From contig NZ_JAFEUP010000002.1 of assembly GCF_016901015.1 (NCBI RefSeq), positions 310,001-374,000 of the forward strand: 64,000 bases of DNA. The letters run 5' to 3'. This DNA comes from Zestomonas insulae. Lineage in GTDB: Bacteria > Pseudomonadota > Gammaproteobacteria > Pseudomonadales > Pseudomonadaceae. The notes beneath the pieces are model-generated. The model was given only the letters and a program-made list of their open reading frames with translations. It did no database searches and was not told where the DNA came from. Made by a program: the position numbers and the translations under genes. Positions 53,499-61,532 of the stretch are shown piece after piece. Each line of letters starts with the position of its first letter. The stretch's first letter is position 1.

Positions 53499-54293
53499 TC
53501 AGGCGCCGGTCAGCTCGGCGAGCAGCTCGTTCTTCAGCTGCTGCAAACGCGGCGAGTGGCGCTCGCGCGGGTGCGGCAGGTCGACCTGCACCTCATGCTT
53601 GATGCGCCCCGGGCGGGCGTCCATGACCACCACCCGGTCGCCGAGGTACAGCGCTTCCTCGACGTCGTGGGTGACCATGATCATGGTGCTGCGCTGCTGC
53701 ACCCAGATGCGCTGCAGCTCGCGCTGCAGATGCACGCGGGTCAGCGCGTCGAGGGCGCCGAACGGTTCGTCGAGCAGCAGCACCTTGGGCTTGGTGATCA
53801 GCGCCCGGGCGATCGCCGCGCGCTGCGCCATGCCGCCGGAGAGCTGGTGCGGGTAGGCCTTCTCGAAGCCGGTCAGGTTGACCAGCGCGAGGTGCTCGGC
53901 GACTAGCTCGGCCTTTTCCTTCTTGCCGAGGCGCTGGTTCTTCAGTGCCAGGGCGACGTTCTCCTCGACGGTCTTCCAGGGGAACAGCCGGTGGTCCTGG
54001 AACACGATGCCGCGTTCCAGGCTGGTGCCGGCGATGGGCTGGCCGTCGAGCAGGATGTCGCCGTCGTACTCGCTCTCCAGGCCGACGATCAGGCGCAGCA
54101 GCGAGGATTTGCCGCAGCCGCTGGCGCCGACGATGCTGACGAACTCGCCCGGCAGCACCTGCAGGTCGATGTTCTCCAGCACCGGCAGGCGCTGCTCGTC
54201 GATCCGGTACTGCTTGCTCAGGTTGCGCACCTGCAGGGCCCCGGGTTGGCGCACCACGGCGCCGATCAATTGCTGGTCAAGAATGGCAGTCAT
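53499..54293 (-). CDS. SsuB/TauB-type ABC transporter ATPase
   Basis: A 264-residue nitrate/sulfonate/taurine-type ABC ATPase. GASGCGKSSLLRLI (Walker A, about 55-68), QLSGGMAQRAAIARALI (signature) and LLLDEPFGALDALTRVHLQ (Walker B, D-loop) are intact, and VTHDVEEALYLGDRV is the H-loop. FQDHRLFPWKTVEEN is the Q-loop region typical of SsuB. ATG 54293 follows a modest AAGG site; a GTG lies one codon earlier. Last gene of the sulfur operon; the permeases precede it, 13 bp away. Confidence 0.92.
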   Translation of the reverse strand: MTAILDQQLIGAVVRQPGALQVRNLSKQYRIDEQRLPVLENIDLQVLPGEFVSIVGASGCGKSSLLRLIVGLESEYDGDILLDGQPIAGTSLERGIVFQDHRLFPWKTVEENVALALKNQRLGKKEKAELVAEHLALVNLTGFEKAYPHQLSGGMAQRAAIARALITKPKVLLLDEPFGALDALTRVHLQRELQRIWVQQRSTMIMVTHDVEEALYLGDRVVVMDARPGRIKHEVQVDLPHPRERHSPRLQQLKNELLAELTGA

Positions 54294-54305
54294 CACGGGT
54301 CACCT

Positions 54306-55076
54306 TTAACGAAGATTGCGCCAGCGCAGCAGATGGCGGCTGAAGCGGGAAAATGCCTGGTTCATGGCGTAACCGAGCAGGCCGATGCACAGCACGCCGA
54401 TCACTACGACTTCCATGCGCGAGCCGGTTTCGGCGTTCATCATCAGGTTGCCGAGGCCCATGCCGGTGGACAGGAACAGCTCGCAACCGACCGAGCTGAC
54501 CCAGGCGAACGCCAGGGCGTGCAGCACGCCGTTGGACAGGCTCGGCAGCGCACTGGGCAGCAGCACCTGGGTGAACTGCTGCAGCGGGGTCAGGGCGTAG
54601 ACCCGACCGACTTCGCGGTAGCGCAGCTCGACGTGGCTGAAGCCCTCGAAGGTGTTCAGGGTCATCGGGTAGAAGGCCGCCAGCGAGACGATCAGCACCT
54701 TGGAGAACTCGCCGCTGCCGAACCACAGGGCCAACAGCGGAATCAGGCCGAGGATCGGTACCTGGCGCAGGGTGTGGTAGAGCGGCGCGAGCAGGCGTTC
54801 GGCGACCTTCGACAGGGCCATCAGCGCGCCGACCGCGAAGCCGGCGAGCACCCCGTAGAGCAGGCCCAGGCAAGTGCGCTGCAGGCTCGCCCAGGTGCTC
54901 AGCCACAGCTCGCCGCTGGCCAGCAACTCGCTGAGGCCGGCGCCGATCTGGCTGAGCGGGACGAAGGCGTAGGCATGGCTGGCGCCCTGCCGCGAGGCGA
55001 ACTCCCAGGCGGCGACCAGCAGCAACGGCAGCAGCAGGCCGCGCAGAGGTTTGAGGTAACGCGTGACAGTACTCAT
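54306..55076 (-). CDS. SsuC/TauC-type ABC permease 1
   Basis: A 256-residue membrane protein with six helices, starting MSTVTRYLKPLRGLLLPLLLVAAWEF. The EAA loop equivalent is EGFSHVELRYREVGRVYALTPLQQFTQVLLPSALPSLSNGVLHAL, which contacts the ATPase. LYHTLRQVPILGLIPLLALWFGSGEFSKVLIVSLAAFYP is the typical SsuC core. It overlaps the start of permease 2's stop by ATGA (55073-55076), so the two permeases are coupled and probably form a heterodimer. Confidence 0.9.
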   Translation of the reverse strand: MSTVTRYLKPLRGLLLPLLLVAAWEFASRQGASHAYAFVPLSQIGAGLSELLASGELWLSTWASLQRTCLGLLYGVLAGFAVGALMALSKVAERLLAPLYHTLRQVPILGLIPLLALWFGSGEFSKVLIVSLAAFYPMTLNTFEGFSHVELRYREVGRVYALTPLQQFTQVLLPSALPSLSNGVLHALAFAWVSSVGCELFLSTGMGLGNLMMNAETGSRMEVVVIGVLCIGLLGYAMNQAFSRFSRHLLRWRNLR

Positions 55077-55834
55077 GAGCGCGGTTTCCAACGGAACAGA
55101 CGTTTTTCCAGGAGGCGGAAGCCATAGTCGAGGGTGAAGCCGATCAGTCCGGTGACCAGCACGCCGACCATCACCACGTCGATGCGCATCATCTGCCGGC
55201 TCATCTCGATCATCTGCCCGAGGCCGCTGTCGGCGGCCAGCAACTCGGCGGCGACCAGCACCATCCAGGCGCGGCTGAGGCTGATGCGCAGGCCGGTGAC
55301 GATCGGCGGCGCGGCGGCCGGGAAGGCCACGTCCTTGAGCAGGCTGCTCAGCGGCAGGCGGTATACGCTGGCGACATCGAAGTAGCTGCGCGGGATGCCC
55401 TTGACGCCCTCGCTGGCGGCCAGGGCCACCGGGAAAAACGCCGCCTTGGTGACGATCAGGATCTTGAAGGTCTCCTCGACGCCGAAGAACAGGATGAACA
55501 TCGGGATCAGCGCGATCGACGGAATCTGCCGCAGGGTATGGAACAGCGGCGCGCAGTAGGCCTCGACGTTCTTCGACAGGGCCATCGCGGTGCCGAACAG
55601 CAGGCCGCCCAGCGCACCGATGGAGAAGCCGATGGCCAGGCGCGACAGGCTGTTCTGCAGGTGCTCGCGCAGCTCGCCGCTGCCGAGCAGTTCGACGAAC
55701 GCCTCGTAGACGTGCTGCGGCGGCACCAGCAACTGGGTGGGGAACCAGCCGGCGTTGGCCACCAGCGCCCAGGCCAGCAGCACGACGAACGGCGAGATCA
55801 GCCAGCTCAGGCGGTTGAAGGAAAGGGTGAGCAT
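55073..55834 (-). CDS. SsuC/TauC-type ABC permease 2
   Basis: A 253-residue homologue of permease 1, also with six helices: MLTLSFNRLSWLISPFVVLLAWALVANAGWFP, FHTLRQIPSIALIPMFILFFGVEETFKILIVTKAAFFP and an EAA loop ASEGVKGIPRSYFDVASVYRLPLSSLLKDVAFPAAAPPIVTGLRI. Two different permeases suggest a heterodimeric pore. Start at 55834, 2 bp after the MFS stop; its own end overlaps permease 1. Confidence 0.9.
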   Translation of the reverse strand: MLTLSFNRLSWLISPFVVLLAWALVANAGWFPTQLLVPPQHVYEAFVELLGSGELREHLQNSLSRLAIGFSIGALGGLLFGTAMALSKNVEAYCAPLFHTLRQIPSIALIPMFILFFGVEETFKILIVTKAAFFPVALAASEGVKGIPRSYFDVASVYRLPLSSLLKDVAFPAAAPPIVTGLRISLSRAWMVLVAAELLAADSGLGQMIEMSRQMMRIDVVMVGVLVTGLIGFTLDYGFRLLEKRLFRWKPRS

Positions 55835-55836
55835 GC

Positions 55837-57048
55837 TTAGCCCTCCAGAGCGACGGCGGATGGGAGCCGGCGTTGCTTGCGCAGCCAGCAGAACAGGGCG
55901 GCCAGCAGTACCAGCGGCATCCAGCAGAGGAACAGGTTGCCGAGCCCAACCAGCTGGCTGATCACCCCGCCGAGCAGCGCGCCGGAGAAGCCGCCGAGCA
56001 TCCCGGCCAGGTTGAACAGCCCGGAGATCTTGCTTTTGTCGACGCTGTGCTCGCCGAGCTGGGCCATGTTGACCAGGTGGATCAGCGCCGCCGCCGCACT
56101 CAGCAGCACCCCGCCGGCGGCCAGCAGCCAGTAGCCGTGGGCGCTGCCGAGCAGCAGCAGGCCGAGCAGCGCGGCGCTCAGGCTGGCGATGTAGGCGAAG
56201 CGACGACCGCTGCGCTCGACCAGGTAGCCGAAGCCGAACAGCGCCACCACCGAGGCCAGGCCCTGGATCATCACCAGGCTCACCGCCTGGTTCTGCGACA
56301 GCTGGGCGACGTCCATGGCGAGCAGGATGATGAAGGTGCCGAACAGCGCGTTGGTGGCCCCGGACAGCAGCTCGATCAGGCAGCTCTCGGCGATCTCGAC
56401 GTGTGCGAGCATGGCCTTGACCTGGGCGAAGATGCCGCCCAGTTCGTCGGCCGCATCGGCGTCAACCGGGACGATCTGCTCCCCCTCCCAGAAGCCCAGG
56501 CTGTACACCGCCATCAGGCCGAAGCACAGGCCGATCACCACGAAGCCGAAGGTGAAGCCGCTGCTGCCGCTCAGCCAGTTGCCCAGCAGCGGGCCGAGCA
56601 GGCCCATGCCGAGGGTCAGCGAGCCGCGGTACCAGCCGGCCTTGTCGTTGCCGATGCGTTTCAGCTGGCGCAGGAACGCGCTGTTCATGGCGACGATGCG
56701 GAACGGGATGCACAGGCCGATCAACAGGCGCGCCACGGCCAGCCAGACCCAGCCGCCGAACAGCGGAATCGCCAGGTTGAGCAGCATCGGCCCGAGGCTG
56801 GCGAGGAAGTACACGCGGCGCGCGCCGTAACGGGCGATGACGAAGCCAGCGGGCAGGGTGAGCAGCACCATGCCCAGCGACTCCATGGCGGCGATGATGC
56901 CGAGCTGCATGGCGTTGGCGCCGATCTCGATGGCGTACAGGGTGGTGATGATCTTCGCCATGCCGATGGTCGCGCCGCTGAACGCGGCGAGCAGCATGAA
57001 GTTGGCGAGGAAGGCGGCGGGTCGCCGCGTGGAATCAGATTGCGACAT
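55837..57048 (-). CDS. MFS transporter within the organosulfur operon
   Basis: A 403-residue major facilitator with about 12 helices. The start MSQSDSTRRPAAFLANFMLLAAFSGATIGMAKIITTLYAIEIGANAMQLG is followed by a motif-A-like LPAGFVIARYGARRVYFLASLG. A second-half PVERSGRR-type loop (LVERSGRRFAYIASLS) is also present. It overlaps the end of the first DszB-like gene by 14 nt, so it belongs to the operon. It may export an end product or import an alternative organosulfur source. The longer upstream reading lies inside that gene and is rejected. Confidence 0.85.
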   Translation of the reverse strand: MSQSDSTRRPAAFLANFMLLAAFSGATIGMAKIITTLYAIEIGANAMQLGIIAAMESLGMVLLTLPAGFVIARYGARRVYFLASLGPMLLNLAIPLFGGWVWLAVARLLIGLCIPFRIVAMNSAFLRQLKRIGNDKAGWYRGSLTLGMGLLGPLLGNWLSGSSGFTFGFVVIGLCFGLMAVYSLGFWEGEQIVPVDADAADELGGIFAQVKAMLAHVEIAESCLIELLSGATNALFGTFIILLAMDVAQLSQNQAVSLVMIQGLASVVALFGFGYLVERSGRRFAYIASLSAALLGLLLLGSAHGYWLLAAGGVLLSAAAALIHLVNMAQLGEHSVDKSKISGLFNLAGMLGGFSGALLGGVISQLVGLGNLFLCWMPLVLLAALFCWLRKQRRLPSAVALEG

Positions 57049-58090
57049 TGACCTTCTCCAGCAACTGCTCGAAGGGGCTCGGCTCGATCCAGGCGCGCAC
57101 ATCGAAGCTGCGCGGGATGAATTCCCAGCGCTCGAGAAAATCGGTGAGGTCCTGCAGAGCGACGATCGAGCGCTCGGCGAGGTTGGTCTGCAGGCGCAGG
57201 TGCGCGTCGTCGCCGTAGGCGTTGGCCACCCAGTACTCGCTGGTGTTCAGTTCGCGGGCGAGGAAACGGCGGGTCTCTTCAGGATGCGCCCAGGCCCACT
57301 GCTCGGCACGCAGCACGGTATCGAGGATCAGCACCGCCGCCTCGAAATGGTTGTCGAGCAGCTGCTGGTCGACGGTCAGGGTGCGCGGCGTGCCGATGTT
57401 GGCGCGGATCAGCGGATCGGGGTGCGAGCCGATGTCGGCGACCACGCGCAGGCCGAACTCGTCGGCGATCTGCAGACCGTGCGCGCCCTTGAGGAAGATC
57501 GCGTCGATGTCGCCGCGCAGCAGGCCGATCAGCTCGTTGTTGCGCTTGCGCGCGCGGCTGGCGCCCAAGGTCACCTGGGCGCCGTGGATATGCCGGGTCG
57601 GCTCGTCGCTGTAGCTGCCGCCGTAGGGATAGTCGACCAGCTCGACGTCGCTAACCTGCAGGCCTTCCAGTTTGAGGGCGTTTTCCAGGCCACGGATGGC
57701 TTGGGCGCGGGTGAAATCGATCTGCACGTTGGCCCACTTGGGCAGGCCGAAACGGCGGTTCTTCAAATCACGGATGCTGCTCACCCCGCTGTCGGCGGTG
57801 GTGACGATCAGCTGCACCTCGTCGCTCCACGACAGGCCGAGCACGCGCGTGGCGCGGCCGCTGGCCTTGGCCCAAACGGCCGGAATGTTGCCACCGTGGC
57901 GTACCGAGTTGTGCAGGTGGTGGTCGAAATGCGCCTCGCGCACTTCGCGGTCGGAGGATTCGCGCAGTGCCTGGATGCGCGTGCCGAACGGGCGGAAGGC
58001 TTGTGCCAAACGGCCGGATTCGACGGCGATGCCGAGCCCTGTGGGTACCGGACTGTGGGTGTACCAGAGGGTATCGAGGGAGTGGGTCAT
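57035..58090 (-). CDS. DszB-like protein 1 (Ser in place of catalytic Cys)
   Basis: A 351-residue protein without a signal peptide, of the SsuA/NMT1-like fold. It aligns to Rhodococcus DszB (2'-hydroxybiphenyl-2-sulfinate desulfinase) around THSPVPTGLGIA (residues 11-22, cf. DszB SNCPVPNALLTA), EAHFDHHLHNSVRHGGNIP (52-70) and a typical FGLPKWANVQIDF block. In DszB the triad is Cys27, His60 and Arg70. Here those positions are Ser13, His54 and Arg64, so the nucleophile is replaced (AGT codon). It could be a solute-binding or chaperone-like homologue or use Ser. About 116 bp after the second copy, separated by two hairpins. Annotation pipelines tend to call it an ABC substrate-binding protein. 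Confidence 0.75.
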   Translation of the reverse strand: MTHSLDTLWYTHSPVPTGLGIAVESGRLAQAFRPFGTRIQALRESSDREVREAHFDHHLHNSVRHGGNIPAVWAKASGRATRVLGLSWSDEVQLIVTTADSGVSSIRDLKNRRFGLPKWANVQIDFTRAQAIRGLENALKLEGLQVSDVELVDYPYGGSYSDEPTRHIHGAQVTLGASRARKRNNELIGLLRGDIDAIFLKGAHGLQIADEFGLRVVADIGSHPDPLIRANIGTPRTLTVDQQLLDNHFEAAVLILDTVLRAEQWAWAHPEETRRFLARELNTSEYWVANAYGDDAHLRLQTNLAERSIVALQDLTDFLERWEFIPRSFDVRAWIEPSPFEQLLEKVNVAI

Positions 58091-58125
58091 AAAACTCGTA
58101 ATTCCAGAGATTGCTCGATCTAGTT

Positions 58126-58202
58126 CCCTCTCCCTCCGGGAGAGGGGAAGGTGTTGCCGGTTCTATTCGGACCTTGTCTCCCTCTCCCGGAGGGCGAGGG
58201 GA
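58126..58202. repeat. Paired CCCTCTCCC/GGGAGAGGG hairpins between the DszB-like genes
   Basis: CCCTCTCCC (58126-58134) pairs with GGGAGAGGG (58138-58146). A second, imperfect hairpin of the same sequence lies at 58177-58202 in the opposite sense (CTCCCTCTCCCGG ... GGGCGAGGGGAG). The element type recurs in Pseudomonas and Xanthomonas intergenic regions. It sits in the only sizeable gap inside the operon and may stabilise or process the transcript. Confidence 0.7.
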
Positions 58203-58206
58203 GAAA

Positions 58207-59262
58207 TCAACCCGCGCGCTTGGCCACCGCGCTGCGCAGGGCTTCCAGCGGCCGCGCGTCGATCCAGTCACGGACCGAGAAGCTCTGCGGGATGAAGTTC
58301 CAGCGCTGCAGGAAGTCGGTGAAGTCCTGCAGGGCCAGCTGCGAGCGCTCGTCGAGGTTGGTGCGCAGGCGCTGGTGGGCGTCGTCGCCGTAGGCCTGGG
58401 TGACCCAGTACTCGCTGCTGTTGGTCTCGCGGGCCAGGTAGCGGCGGGTGTCGTCCGGGTGGGTCCAGGCCCATTCCTCGGCGCGCAGCACCGAGCTGAG
58501 GATGCCGACCGCCACATCGAAGTGCTGGTCGAGCAGGTTGAGGTCGACGCTCAGGGTGCGCGGCGTGCCGTTGTTGGCGCGGATCAGCGGCTCGGGGTGC
58601 GAGCCGGTGTCGATCACCGTGTGCAGGCCGAACTGCTGAGCGAGCTGCGCGGCGCTGGCGCCCTTGAGGAAGATCGCGTCGACTTCGCCACGCAGCAGGC
58701 CGACCAGCTCGGCGTTCTGCCCGCCGCGACGGCGGCCGCCGAAAGTGGAGATGCCGTTGACGGTCTGCGCCGCTTCATCGCTGAAGGTGCCGCCGTGCAG
58801 GTAGTCGACCAGTTCGACGTCCTTGACCTCCAGGCCGTCGAGTTTCAGCGCGTTCTCCAGGCCGCGGATGGCCTGTGCGCGGGTGAAGTCGATCTGCGCG
58901 TTGGCCCAGTTCGGCAGGCCGAACTTGCGGCCCTTGAGGTCCTTGGCGGATTTGATGCCGCTGTCCGGGTTGGTGAGGATCAGCTGCACCTCGTCGGCCC
59001 AGGACAGGCCGATCACCCGCGTCTCGCGGCCGCTGGCGCGCGCCCAGATGGCCGGGATGTTGCCGCCGTGGCGTACCGAGTTCTGCAGGGTGTGGTCGAA
59101 GTGCGACTCGCGCACCGCCTGGTTGTCGGACTCGCGCAGTGACTTGATGGCGGTGCCCTGGGCGCCCAGGGTTTCCTCCAGCCAGCCTTTCTGCACGGCG
59201 ATGCCGAGGCCGGTCGGTACCGGGCAGCGGGTGTACCAGAGCGTTTCCAATTGTTGGCTCAT
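58207..59262 (-). CDS. DszB-like sulfinate desulfinase candidate (Cys/His/Arg triad intact)
   Basis: A 351-residue cytosolic paralogue of the downstream gene. It shows TRCPVPTGLGIAVQKGWL (residues 11-28) and ESHFDHTLQNSVRHGGNIP (52-70). Aligned by hand to DszB, Cys13, His54 and Arg64 match Cys27, His60 and Arg70, and the His-to-Arg spacing (10) is identical; the Cys-to-His spacing is 8 longer. DszB cleaves a C-S bond of a sulfinate to give sulfite. If active, this enzyme would release sulfite from a sulfinate made by the monooxygenase upstream. It has no signal peptide, so it cannot serve a periplasmic transporter. Common databases may list it as an ABC substrate-binding protein. Confidence 0.78.
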   Translation of the reverse strand: MSQQLETLWYTRCPVPTGLGIAVQKGWLEETLGAQGTAIKSLRESDNQAVRESHFDHTLQNSVRHGGNIPAIWARASGRETRVIGLSWADEVQLILTNPDSGIKSAKDLKGRKFGLPNWANAQIDFTRAQAIRGLENALKLDGLEVKDVELVDYLHGGTFSDEAAQTVNGISTFGGRRRGGQNAELVGLLRGEVDAIFLKGASAAQLAQQFGLHTVIDTGSHPEPLIRANNGTPRTLSVDLNLLDQHFDVAVGILSSVLRAEEWAWTHPDDTRRYLARETNSSEYWVTQAYGDDAHQRLRTNLDERSQLALQDFTDFLQRWNFIPQSFSVRDWIDARPLEALRSAVAKRAG

Positions 59263-59280: not shown

Positions 59281-60456
59281 TCAGGCACTTTTCAGTGCGG
59301 CGGTTGATGCGATGGGTTGGCCGTTGCTTTGCGGCGCGCTGGCGTGCACCAGAGGCAACACTTCCTGACCGATGCGCAGGGCCTCTTCGAGGTGCGGATT
59401 GCCGGCCAGGATGAAGGTCGAGAAGCCGGCGTCGCGGTACTCGGCGAGGCGCTCGGCGACGTTCTCGTGGCTGCCGACCAGGCCGATGGTCGGCCCCGGC
59501 TTGGCCTTGCCGAAGCCGGCGAACAGGTTGGGGCCGATGATCAGGTCATCGAAGCGGTCGGTGTTCTGGTGGTAGGCGGTCTGCCGCGCCGCGCCGACCG
59601 AGTCGGAACCGGTGGCGAAGTGCTTGATGAAGGCGCTGGTCTTGGCGTCGATGCGCTCGTACTGGCGGCGCAGCTCGCTCCACGCGGCTTCCTCGGTCTC
59701 GCGGGCGAACAGGTCGATGCGGATGCCGAAGCGCACCTCGCGGCCCTGCTTGGCGGCCAGCTCGCGGACCCGATCGATGTGCGGCTTGAGCTTGTCGACC
59801 GGCTCGGCCCAGTTCAGGTAGACGTCGGCGTGCTTGGCGGCGACGTCCAGCGCCGGGTCGGAGAAGCCGGAGAAGTACACCCCGGGCTTGCGCTCGTTGC
59901 GCAGGCCGAGCGGCAGCGAACCGTTCTCCAGCTGGTAGATGTCGCCCTGGTAGCTGAACTGCTCGTTCGCCCACAGGCCCTGGATGATGTCGAGGAATTC
60001 GCCGGTGCGCTGGTAGCGCTTGTCGTGCTCGAGGAAGTCGCCGTTGGCGCGCTGACTGGCCGGGTTGCCGCCGGTGATGATGTTCCACTCCAGGCGCCCG
60101 CGGCTGAGGTTCTGCAGGATCGCCGCCTGCTGCGCGGCGTAGGCCGGCAGCGTCCAGGTGGCCTGGAAGGCGATCAGGAACTTGATCCGCCGTGTCTCGC
60201 GGGCCAGCGCCGCGGCGGCGATCCACGGCTCGGGGCCGGTCGGCAGCAACGCGCCTTCGAAGCCGGCCAGCTCGGCGGCCTTGGCCACCTGGGCGACGTA
60301 GTCGATGTAGGTGAAGCCGTCCGGCTCGCCATTCGGCAAGCGGCCGGGGGCGATGTTGCCCGGCCGGTACTGGGCGACGCCGCGGTTGTTCTTGTCCGAG
60401 GCGATTTGCGGGCCGTCGCTGCCGAGCGGCAGGCGCCAGAAGAATTCGGTACTCAT
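59281..60456 (-). CDS. SsuD-like FMNH2-dependent (alkane)sulfonate monooxygenase
   Basis: A 391-residue LLM-class flavin monooxygenase of the SsuD/DszA group. It starts MSTEFFWRLPLGSDGPQI, cf. SsuD MFWFLPTHGDG. AELAGFEGALLPTG, IKFLIAFQATWTLPAYAAQQAAILQNLSRGRLEWNIITGGNP, RFGIRIDLFARETEEAAW and LVGSHENVAERLAEYRDAGFSTFILAGNPHLEEALRIG are all family blocks. It is slightly longer than SsuD because of a loop near residue 30-45. It needs FMNH2 from a partner reductase not present here. First gene of the operon, 55 bp behind a sigma-54-type promoter. ATG 60456 chosen. Confidence 0.9.
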   Translation of the reverse strand: MSTEFFWRLPLGSDGPQIASDKNNRGVAQYRPGNIAPGRLPNGEPDGFTYIDYVAQVAKAAELAGFEGALLPTGPEPWIAAAALARETRRIKFLIAFQATWTLPAYAAQQAAILQNLSRGRLEWNIITGGNPASQRANGDFLEHDKRYQRTGEFLDIIQGLWANEQFSYQGDIYQLENGSLPLGLRNERKPGVYFSGFSDPALDVAAKHADVYLNWAEPVDKLKPHIDRVRELAAKQGREVRFGIRIDLFARETEEAAWSELRRQYERIDAKTSAFIKHFATGSDSVGAARQTAYHQNTDRFDDLIIGPNLFAGFGKAKPGPTIGLVGSHENVAERLAEYRDAGFSTFILAGNPHLEEALRIGQEVLPLVHASAPQSNGQPIASTAALKSA

Positions 60457-60521
60457 GAAGGGTGCTCCAGTGGCTGCTTGAGAGATCCGCAGCGGCTCGG
60501 CGCTGGGGGTGCAGGGTCTGG

Positions 60522-60537
60522 AGCAAGGGCTGTGCCG
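60522..60537 (-). promoter_or_regulatory. Sigma-54 (-24/-12) promoter of the organosulfur operon
   Basis: On the minus strand CGGCACAGCCCTTGCT matches the consensus TGGCAC-N5-TTGC except for the first base, with GG-N10-GC spacing exact (GG at 60536-60535, GC at 60524-60523). Transcription should start near 60511, about 55 nt before the monooxygenase ATG at 60456. Confidence 0.75.
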
Positions 60538-60600
60538 AAAGGCTGTAAGCCTTGTCTGGCGCGGCTTGCAGCGTTGTGGGTGGGCTCGCTGGAGGGGCGA

Positions 60601-60650
60601 TTGCTGATCCAGCAACACCTCGCCAGCAGCGGCTGCTGGGGCTGCAGCAG
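60601..60650. promoter_or_regulatory. Inverted-repeat cluster, candidate shared enhancer (UAS)
   Basis: TTGCTG-ATC-CAGCAA (60601-60615), CCAGCAGC-G-GCTGCTGG (60623-60639) and CTGCTG-N6-CAGCAG (60633-60650) are perfect inverted repeats of TGCTG/CAGCA half-sites. They lie between the two sigma-54 promoters, about 90-140 bp upstream of both expected start sites, where enhancer-binding activators usually sit. The rest of the 341-bp gap 60457-60797 shows only the two promoters and a short AAGGCT-GTA-AGCCTT repeat (60539-60553). Confidence 0.6.
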
Positions 60651-60721
60651 AATCGCTATCCGCGCCGTGCAGGTTGCTGAGCTATCTCTACAAGCTGTTG
60701 AAATAAAAGGGATTTACTGGC

Positions 60722-60737
60722 TGGCACAAGTCCTGCT
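60722..60737 (+). promoter_or_regulatory. Sigma-54 (-24/-12) promoter of the class II aldolase gene
   Basis: TGGCACAAGTCCTGCT matches the -24/-12 consensus with exact GG-N10-GC spacing (GG 60723-60724, GC 60735-60736). The start should be near 60748, giving a ~50-nt leader before ATG 60798. Confidence 0.78.
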
Positions 60738-60797
60738 CAGGACCCGGCAGAACCGCGCAACCGAGCGTGGCTTCCCTTACCAGACAGGAGCTCGACC

Positions 60798-61532
60798 ATG
60801 ACCGCCAGCCTCACTCCGCAACTGCTCGGCCAGCTCGACCAGGCCAAGCGCGACTTCGCCAAGGCATTTCGCGTACTCAGGGACACCCGCACGCTGACCG
60901 CCACCAACACCTACCAGGCCTATGTCCGCGTGCCGGACAGCGAACTGGTGATCGCCCTGCACGCGCCAGGCCCGTGGGCCGACGACCAGGAAATTCGCGC
61001 GGTGGTGGCCAGCTACGACGGCGTGGTGGCCCTCGACGAGAGCATCGACGGCAGCTCGCCGCTCAGCGGCAGCAAGGCCGGCGGCAATGGCAAGCGCTAC
61101 GCGGCGATCTTCCAGCAGCGTCCGGAAGTCAACGTGGTGATCCACGTGCACACCCCGTACCTCGGCGGCTGGGCCAGCGCGCACCGCGTGCTGCCGATCC
61201 GCTATGCCGCCTCGCAACGGGTGACCCTGGCGCGCGAGCTGCCGATCTACATCGACCGCCGCCAGCCGGAAGCCGACTACATCGTCGAGCAGATCCAGGC
61301 CAACCCGCACACCCCGGCGATCCTCGAAGCCAACGGCGGGGCGACCTTCTGGGGCACCGGCATCATCCAGGCCTCCAAGTTGATTCTGCTGATCGAGGAG
61401 GGCGCCTACTTCCAGGGGCTGGCCGAGATCTTCGGCGGCTCCAAGGAGTTCGGCCCCGGCGTGCTCGAGCAGCAGTGGAAGATGACCGGCCTGTGGCCGC
61501 AGGGGCAGAAGCTGCTCGAAGCCGTGGCCTGA
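60798..61532 (+). CDS. Class II aldolase/adducin-family protein
   Basis: A 244-residue protein of the class II aldolase/adducin family, a zinc-dependent fold. VNVVIHVHTPYLGGWASAHR (about 111-130) has the H-x-H zinc ligands and a further His. In typical members an SSE-type motif with the catalytic Glu lies just upstream; here the corresponding KAGGNGKRYAAIF has no Glu at that position, so aldolase chemistry is uncertain. It could instead handle the carbon skeleton released by desulfonation; this is inference. GACAGGAG sits 8 nt before the ATG. Divergent from the monooxygenase across the two sigma-54 promoters, and terminated by a good hairpin. Confidence 0.82.
   Translation: MTASLTPQLLGQLDQAKRDFAKAFRVLRDTRTLTATNTYQAYVRVPDSELVIALHAPGPWADDQEIRAVVASYDGVVALDESIDGSSPLSGSKAGGNGKRYAAIFQQRPEVNVVIHVHTPYLGGWASAHRVLPIRYAASQRVTLARELPIYIDRRQPEADYIVEQIQANPHTPAILEANGGATFWGTGIIQASKLILLIEEGAYFQGLAEIFGGSKEFGPGVLEQQWKMTGLWPQGQKLLEAVA

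Follow-up and report, generated by a model that had tools for sequence, protein, structure and literature searches.

A putative bidirectional sigma-54 control region with a shared five-half-site element and its probable SfnR2-type activator in Zestomonas insulae

The 341-bp intergenic region between a monooxygenase gene (start at 60456, minus strand) and a class II aldolase gene (start at 60798, plus strand) is predicted to be a bidirectional sigma-54 control region, in which an SfnR2-type enhancer-binding protein (EBP) on a shared element would co-activate the monooxygenase operon and the aldolase. We assign this reading a probability of about 0.85. Positions refer to the window, i.e. the whole 64-kb stretch analyzed (C3:310001-374000), and coordinates above 64000 are counted on past its right end. 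The promoters, the element, the spacing and the presence and linkage of the regulator are apparent from sequence and conservation. The relevant features are listed below.

53499-59262, minus strand: rest of the left cluster, i.e. two SsuA-like binding proteins, an MFS transporter, two ABC permeases and an ATPase (profile matches)
59281-60456, minus strand: FMN-dependent luciferase-like monooxygenase related to SsuD, first gene of the left cluster (PF00296)
60522-60537, minus strand: putative sigma-54 -24/-12 promoter of the monooxygenase/ABC-transporter genes, CGGCAC-AGCCC-TTGCT (read from 60537 to 60522)
60602-60649, minus strand: putative enhancer element, 48 bp, five half-sites
60602-60617, minus strand: enhancer dyad 2, TGTTG-N6-CAGCA (pattern search)
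60624-60628, minus strand: middle half-site TGCTG
60634-60649, minus strand: enhancer dyad 1, TGCTG-N6-CAGCA (pattern search)
60691-60703, minus strand: IHF-like site between enhancer and aldolase promoter
60722-60737, plus strand: putative sigma-54 -24/-12 promoter of the aldolase gene, TGGCAC-AAGTC-CTGCT
60798-61532, plus strand: class II aldolase/adducin-family gene, target of the right promoter (PF00596)
91393 to about 92475 (C3:401393-402472): candidate EBP, 360 aa, PF00158 from residue 22

Two opposed sigma-54 promoters

Sigma-54 promoters follow a -24/-12 consensus of the TGGCAC-N5-TTGC type with GG-N10-GC spacing. Two opposed sites with exact spacing of this kind had been described in the earlier note, and both are present, one for the monooxygenase on the minus strand and one for the aldolase on the plus strand. 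The aldolase promoter departs from the consensus at -15 (CTGC). The strict pattern YGGCAC-N5-YTGCT has two matches in the window, both at these promoters, compared with a mean of 0.31 in shuffled windows. In a hand-made scoring scheme the two promoters are the top-scoring sigma-54 sites of the window (15.9; next 15.4). Two matches in the window are, taken alone, only mildly improbable. Hence, it is their conservation that settles whether they are real.

If +1 is placed 12 nt past the C of the GC at -12, transcription would start at 60511 (minus) and 60748 (plus). A single PF04552 match in the genome represents rpoN (E 1.5e-69). By motif, conservation and the presence of rpoN, both promoters appear to belong to the sigma-54-dependent class. 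A coding origin of the region was considered and rejected: the left reading frame is open to 60618, but 21/21 orthologues begin with M[ST]TEFFWR at the position of 60456. Therefore, the region 60457-60797 is taken as intergenic.

Conservation of the promoters among relatives

Monooxygenase relatives (E <= 1e-100) were found in 21 genomes, the own genome included, of a genus sample of 149. All 21 orthologues carry a sigma-54 site scoring at least 15.4 at 47-82 nt before the start codon, which is the strongest forward site within 600 nt upstream. A search of named genomes kept 79 loci, 75 of them with enough upstream sequence. At a distance of 47-83 nt from the start codon, 72 of these 75 distinct upstream sequences hold a monooxygenase promoter scoring at least 15 (missing in L173, L180 and L192), compared with 0.5% of 2663 random 120-bp windows; since the sequences share common descent, this and the following counts are not independent and overstate significance.

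The departure at -15 would fit a reading in which the left promoter alone is sigma-54-dependent, the right site arose by chance and a different promoter drives the aldolase. This is very unlikely, because a site scoring at least 14.5 is kept in 32/32 named loci with a divergent aldolase (3.2% of random 290-bp windows contain one), and its distances to the element are grouped in 28/28 measurable cases. A search for a sigma-70-like site at 60400-60850 gave none, which counts for little since shuffles also gave 0. Among the named loci without a divergent aldolase, the opposed promoter was found in just 3/43. Its presence thus appears to track that of the divergent aldolase gene.

Flanking genes

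The best NCBIfam match of the monooxygenase is alkanesulfonate monooxygenase (303.5 bits), which is below the cut-off of 510. The protein also fails the SsuD equivalog TIGR03565 (300.5 bits, cut-off 518.2) and the SfnG equivalog TIGR04021 (150.2, cut-off 382.95). Co-transcription of the left cluster is presumed; the gene order is similar in relatives. Elsewhere on the contig, a stretch 32% identical to the monooxygenase contains one in-frame TAG (L030, G000:C3:72251-73243).

A putative shared element of five half-sites

Inverted TGCTG/CAGCA repeats had been noted about 90-140 bp upstream of each start. This description holds (91-138 and 99-146 bp upstream of the predicted minus- and plus-strand starts), but the repeats are better described as one 48-bp element with TGYTG at 0, CARCA at 11, TGCTG at 21, TGYTG at 32 and CARCA at 43, which is matched here with 0 mismatches. 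The element lies about midway between the promoters, 64 bp from one and 72 bp from the other. With up to three mismatches it was found once in the window, compared with 0 in 100 shuffles, and in two places of the 4.87-Mb genome, compared with 0 for the reversed control.

Of the 75 named relatives, 71 have a dyad with one mismatch or none (11.6% of random windows) and 54 have two or more such dyads (2.7%). The commonest spacing from dyad to dyad is 32 bp (41 pairs). The middle half-site was not a selection criterion for the 39 distinct elements aligned, which were chosen solely for two dyads 32 bp apart; nevertheless TGCT is found in 39/39 of them and the final G in 36/39. The whole element, with at most four mismatches, is present in 61/75 named relatives, compared with 7 of 972 random windows. 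Among the 14 relatives in which it is absent, four (L129, L151, L189 and L191) retain both promoters; their dyads are spaced differently, or there is just one.

In GC-rich, CTG-rich DNA, chance matches have to be considered: by itself, the dyad TGYTG-N6-CARCA has 90 matches in the genome, and 3 of 100 window shuffles contain two promoters. However, the reversed dyad control gives 24, the full element is found twice compared with no control match, and the arrangement is conserved across the 75 distinct upstream sequences. A chance origin, tested against shuffles, random windows and reversed patterns, is rejected; we regard its probability as negligible.

Across the 149 genus genomes, the element with at most two mismatches was found in 25 places in 16 genomes (control 0). 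All 16 are among the 21 with the monooxygenase gene, and none of the other 128 contains it. Fifteen copies precede the monooxygenase, five precede the EBP gene and five lie elsewhere, four of these near TonB-receptor-like genes and one near a gene similar to a binding protein. Since 15 of the 25 copies precede the monooxygenase itself, the restriction to these 21 genomes is partly built in.

Distances between element and promoters

In 57 of the 61 relatives with the element, its distance to the monooxygenase promoter is 41, 51-53, 62-65 or 73-75 bp; in the other four it is 119-132 bp and out of phase. The distance to the aldolase promoter is 42, 52, 72-73 or 82-83 bp in 28/28 relatives with element and divergent aldolase. 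Most of these classes differ by about one helical turn, as would be predicted for an enhancer that has to face its promoter. With each class value counted once, phasing gave P values of 0.03 and 0.01. Rayleigh tests at 10.5 bp on distinct distances gave 0.077 (all 13) and 0.0019 (the 10 under 100 bp) on the monooxygenase side and 0.0061 on the aldolase side; the best-fit periods differ between the two sides (about 11 and 10.25 bp). With repeated values removed, support for helical phasing is modest.

The grouped distances also bear on the nature of the bound protein. The repeats could bind another type of protein, e.g. CysB or a repressor, while an EBP acts on the sigma-54 sites from elsewhere or from solution, and a paper title does call SfnR CysB-regulated. 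We consider this very unlikely, because distances to two sigma-54 promoters are grouped, similar dyads are found at sfnG and msuE, and the element, with at most two mismatches, occurs only in genomes with the EBP among the 149 of the genus.

The IHF-like site on the aldolase side has one mismatch to the IHF consensus, WATCARNNNNTTR. Of 32 relatives, 13 contain an exact match (0.3% of shuffles) and 26 a match with no more than one mismatch (10.4% of shuffles).

The candidate regulator

In the earlier note it was stated that no enhancer-binding regulator is coded in the window. In agreement with this, none of the 24 PF00158 matches above cut-off in the genome (18 at E <= 5e-52) lies inside C3:310001-374000. 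The sole match on the contig is the candidate EBP at C3:401393-402472, 27.4 kb past the window's end and 31 kb from the control region. It contains no N-terminal sensory domain, and its C-terminal segment can be read by eye as a helix-turn-helix.

Members of the clade of this EBP (at least 84% identity, nearly full length) and the monooxygenase occupy an identical set of 21 among the 149 genomes, and the next full-length matches drop to 65% identity. Two partial matches were observed, a 184-aa piece at 91% in G075, a genome without the monooxygenase, and a 232-aa piece at 69% in G115. The sister (SfnR/SfnR1) clade is 59-65% identical to the candidate, and a further group 51-54%. A tree, built without the P. 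aeruginosa proteins and with long-branch warnings for some other rows, splits the SfnR2-type and SfnR/SfnR1 clades (support 95/92 and 100/100). The sister-clade EBP adjoins sfnG in L106 and, by eye, acyl-CoA-dehydrogenase-like genes in the five loci looked at.

In seven loci (L115, L116, L118, L125, L130, L190 and L193) the EBP shares one cluster with TonB receptor, binding protein, aldolase, monooxygenase and transporter, in the order EBP< TonB> SBP> ... aldolase< monooxygenase> SBP> SBP> .... The distance from EBP to monooxygenase is about 30 kb in the window's genome and 615 kb in G031.

An 82% identical EBP of 361 aa was found in a P. aeruginosa record (the best plasmid match), where tssA lies on one side of it and a hypothetical gene, then msuE, on the other. 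Its identity is 78-83% with the 21 clade members, compared with 60-64% with nine of the other clade. The candidate thus appears to belong with the SfnR2 (PA2359) orthologue group and not with SfnR/SfnR1. According to one source, PA2359 is sfnR2 and lies next to PA2360 hsiA3 (PMC9602442). Another describes Sfa3 as a protein of 361 aa encoded with the H3-T6SS, gives PA2359 as an example gene number and reports that mutation of sfa3 had no effect on H3-T6SS expression (PMC3804575). Presumably, PA2359, SfnR2 and Sfa3 are one protein.

A P. aeruginosa plasmid, pHPA0170-2 (L219, NZ_CP137515.1), carries type VI secretion genes, an SfnR2-type EBP, msuE and a gene named ssuD, as well as an acyl-CoA dehydrogenase and a second EBP; the stretch looks chromosomal in origin. 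Outside Pseudomonas, monooxygenase relatives with 77-81% identity (L178, L183, L184, L186) have upstream sigma-54 sites, and their loci also encode an EBP with 55-56% identity, at a distance of 1.4-8.3 kb in L178, L183 and L184.

Two observations count against the SfnR2-type link. The EBP gene is far from the control region, both here and in G031. Moreover, P. aeruginosa has an SfnR2-type EBP beside msu and type VI genes rather than a monooxygenase/aldolase pair, and consequently such an EBP need not imply this pair as a target.

A possible half-site code and comparison with known systems

The arrangement resembles that of SfnR-dependent sfnFG in Pseudomonas putida, where an FMN monooxygenase acting on organic sulfur is likewise preceded by a sigma-54 promoter. 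In the genus sample sfnG (E <= 1e-140) was detected in 66 of 149 genomes, with no match at this threshold in the window's genome (G000). Thirty sfnG loci were examined. In each of them a sigma-54 site lies in the 700 nt upstream, at 67-123 nt in 25 loci and at 657-684 nt in five, and the best dyad within 200 bp of this site has at most one mismatch in 26/30.

The sfnG loci share the N6 dyad with the window; there, the form is TGTTG-N6-CAACA within 200 bp upstream of -24. Unlike here, half-site position 3 is T in 25/26 sfnG dyads, whereas it is C in 91 of 122 dyads of the monooxygenase elements (T in 30, A in 1), and the EBP at sfnG is of a different clade. The C-terminal segments differ between the EBP clades, with NQLQTGRLLGISRNIVRARLEKIG in the window's genome and NQVHTAALLGLSRNVTRTRLIKIG in L108. 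These residue differences may read the C/T change at position 3.

In L151 the nearby EBP is of the SfnR1 clade (62%), and a dyad TGTTG-N6-CAACA, instead of TGCTG, lies at -207 upstream of the monooxygenase. This locus may represent a natural swap of EBP clade and half-site; with so short a contig, however, the genome may hold a further EBP elsewhere.

L151 would also fit a reading in which both promoters are sigma-54-dependent but activated by an SfnR/SfnR1-clade protein, by the short EBP at C6:328392-329306 or by another EBP of the genome. SfnR-type EBPs use similar dyads (TGTTG compared with TGCTG). The short EBP (L083, G000:C6:328392-329306) is SfnR-like, with 304 aa and 57% identity over 262 aa, and 17/21 genomes have another SfnR-type EBP at E <= 1e-90. 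On the other hand, with 13 candidates scored per genome, no second one was found at this threshold in the other four (G000, G013, G101 and G126), the SfnR2 clade matches the distribution of the monooxygenase gene and shares its cluster, and position 3 separates the two dyad types. We therefore regard activation by a different EBP as rather unlikely. As for its surroundings, the short EBP adjoins genes resembling, by eye, a sulfate-binding protein and a sulfate ABC transporter.

The SfnR2-type protein remains the preferred activator, and P. aeruginosa offers a comparable site. Upstream of msuE we find TGTTG-N6-CAACA, CAGCA, a further TGTTG and then a sigma-54 site (15.9), a half-site run that by eye mirrors the arrangement in the window. 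The suggestion of an SfnR-type activator in the earlier note thus gains support from promoter and element conservation, from co-occurrence with the SfnR2-clade EBP and from the similar dyads at sfnG and P. aeruginosa msuE. The likely regulator is, however, the SfnR2 (PA2359) paralogue and not the SfnR clade found beside sfnG and acyl-CoA-dehydrogenase-like genes.

Bidirectional sigma-54 control regions sharing one enhancer are a general class that includes other regulators and pathways. The control region resembles this class in its two opposed -24/-12 promoters around one enhancer. The mechanism is known in kind. As far as our literature search can tell, the particular promoter pair, the element and the link to the regulator are new: no title or abstract dealt with the monooxygenase/aldolase promoter pair, in a search mostly outside subscription journals.

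A wider organosulfur region

A second organosulfur cluster lies 16-28 kb past the window (L025:16399-19544 and L026:3607-8472, i.e. window coordinates 80399-83544 and 87607-92472). It contains an NtaA/DmoA-family monooxygenase, a paralogous class II aldolase, SsuA-like binding proteins, a TonB receptor and the SfnR2-type EBP. Between the two clusters, just past the window's right end, there is a sulfatase-family gene (PF00884; L025:1420-2991, window coordinates 65420-66991).

The genome holds a second divergent sigma-54 pair at 83585 (minus, 15.2) and 83969 (plus, 14.7), enclosing dyads spaced 31 bp. To one side of it lie the genes for an SsuA-like binding protein, the second aldolase and the NtaA/DmoA-family monooxygenase, to the other a TonB-receptor-like frame. 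The 83585 site fits only with a binding-protein start near 83541, not with the first start of the frame at 83604. Distances from dyads to promoters are longer here (about 144 and 177 bp).

Upstream of the EBP gene, the element is directed at a minus-strand sigma-54 site (14.5) that points to the TonB receptor gene; such a site, scoring at least 14.2, is found by the EBP gene in 17/21 loci. A site driving the EBP gene itself was sought in the 21 loci, with a best forward score of just 13.5. Dyads with at most one mismatch precede 18/21 EBP genes, compared with 1/9 in the sister clade; the full element, at up to four mismatches, is found in 6/21. The control region, the second divergent pair and the element at the EBP gene probably form one regulon for scavenging organic sulfur.

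Proposed mechanism and implications

We propose that the SfnR2-type EBP binds the five half-sites at 60602-60649 as an oligomer and would activate sigma-54 polymerase at either promoter by looping of the intervening DNA, perhaps helped by IHF on the aldolase side. Consequently, the monooxygenase and the sulfonate-type ABC uptake genes on the left and the class II aldolase on the right would be co-induced, presumably under sulfate limitation. The same type of element would serve the promoter facing away from the EBP gene (here that of the TonB receptor), and the variant spaced 31 bp the second divergent pair. We infer that the EBP binds and activates, that the DNA loops and that sulfur starvation induces the system; the type of substrate is likewise inferred.

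An ancestral role of the SfnR2-clade EBP as master switch for an entire organosulfur uptake-and-desulfurization island in many Pseudomonas, with stranding in P. aeruginosa (as Sfa3) between msu and H3-T6SS genes, is in our judgement about as likely as not. In that case, the island would consist of TonB receptors, SsuA-like binding proteins, two monooxygenases, two aldolases and an ABC transporter, and one five-half-site element would drive two operons at once. The stranding of Sfa3 would then also explain why no T6SS role was found.

The analysis puts forward a regulator, its binding element and a set of targets for a sulfur-scavenging island of many Pseudomonas that is poorly characterized. 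A half-site code that would distinguish two sister SfnR-type regulators by TGCTG and TGTTG becomes open to direct test, and the SfnR2/Sfa3 clade gains a possible role outside secretion.
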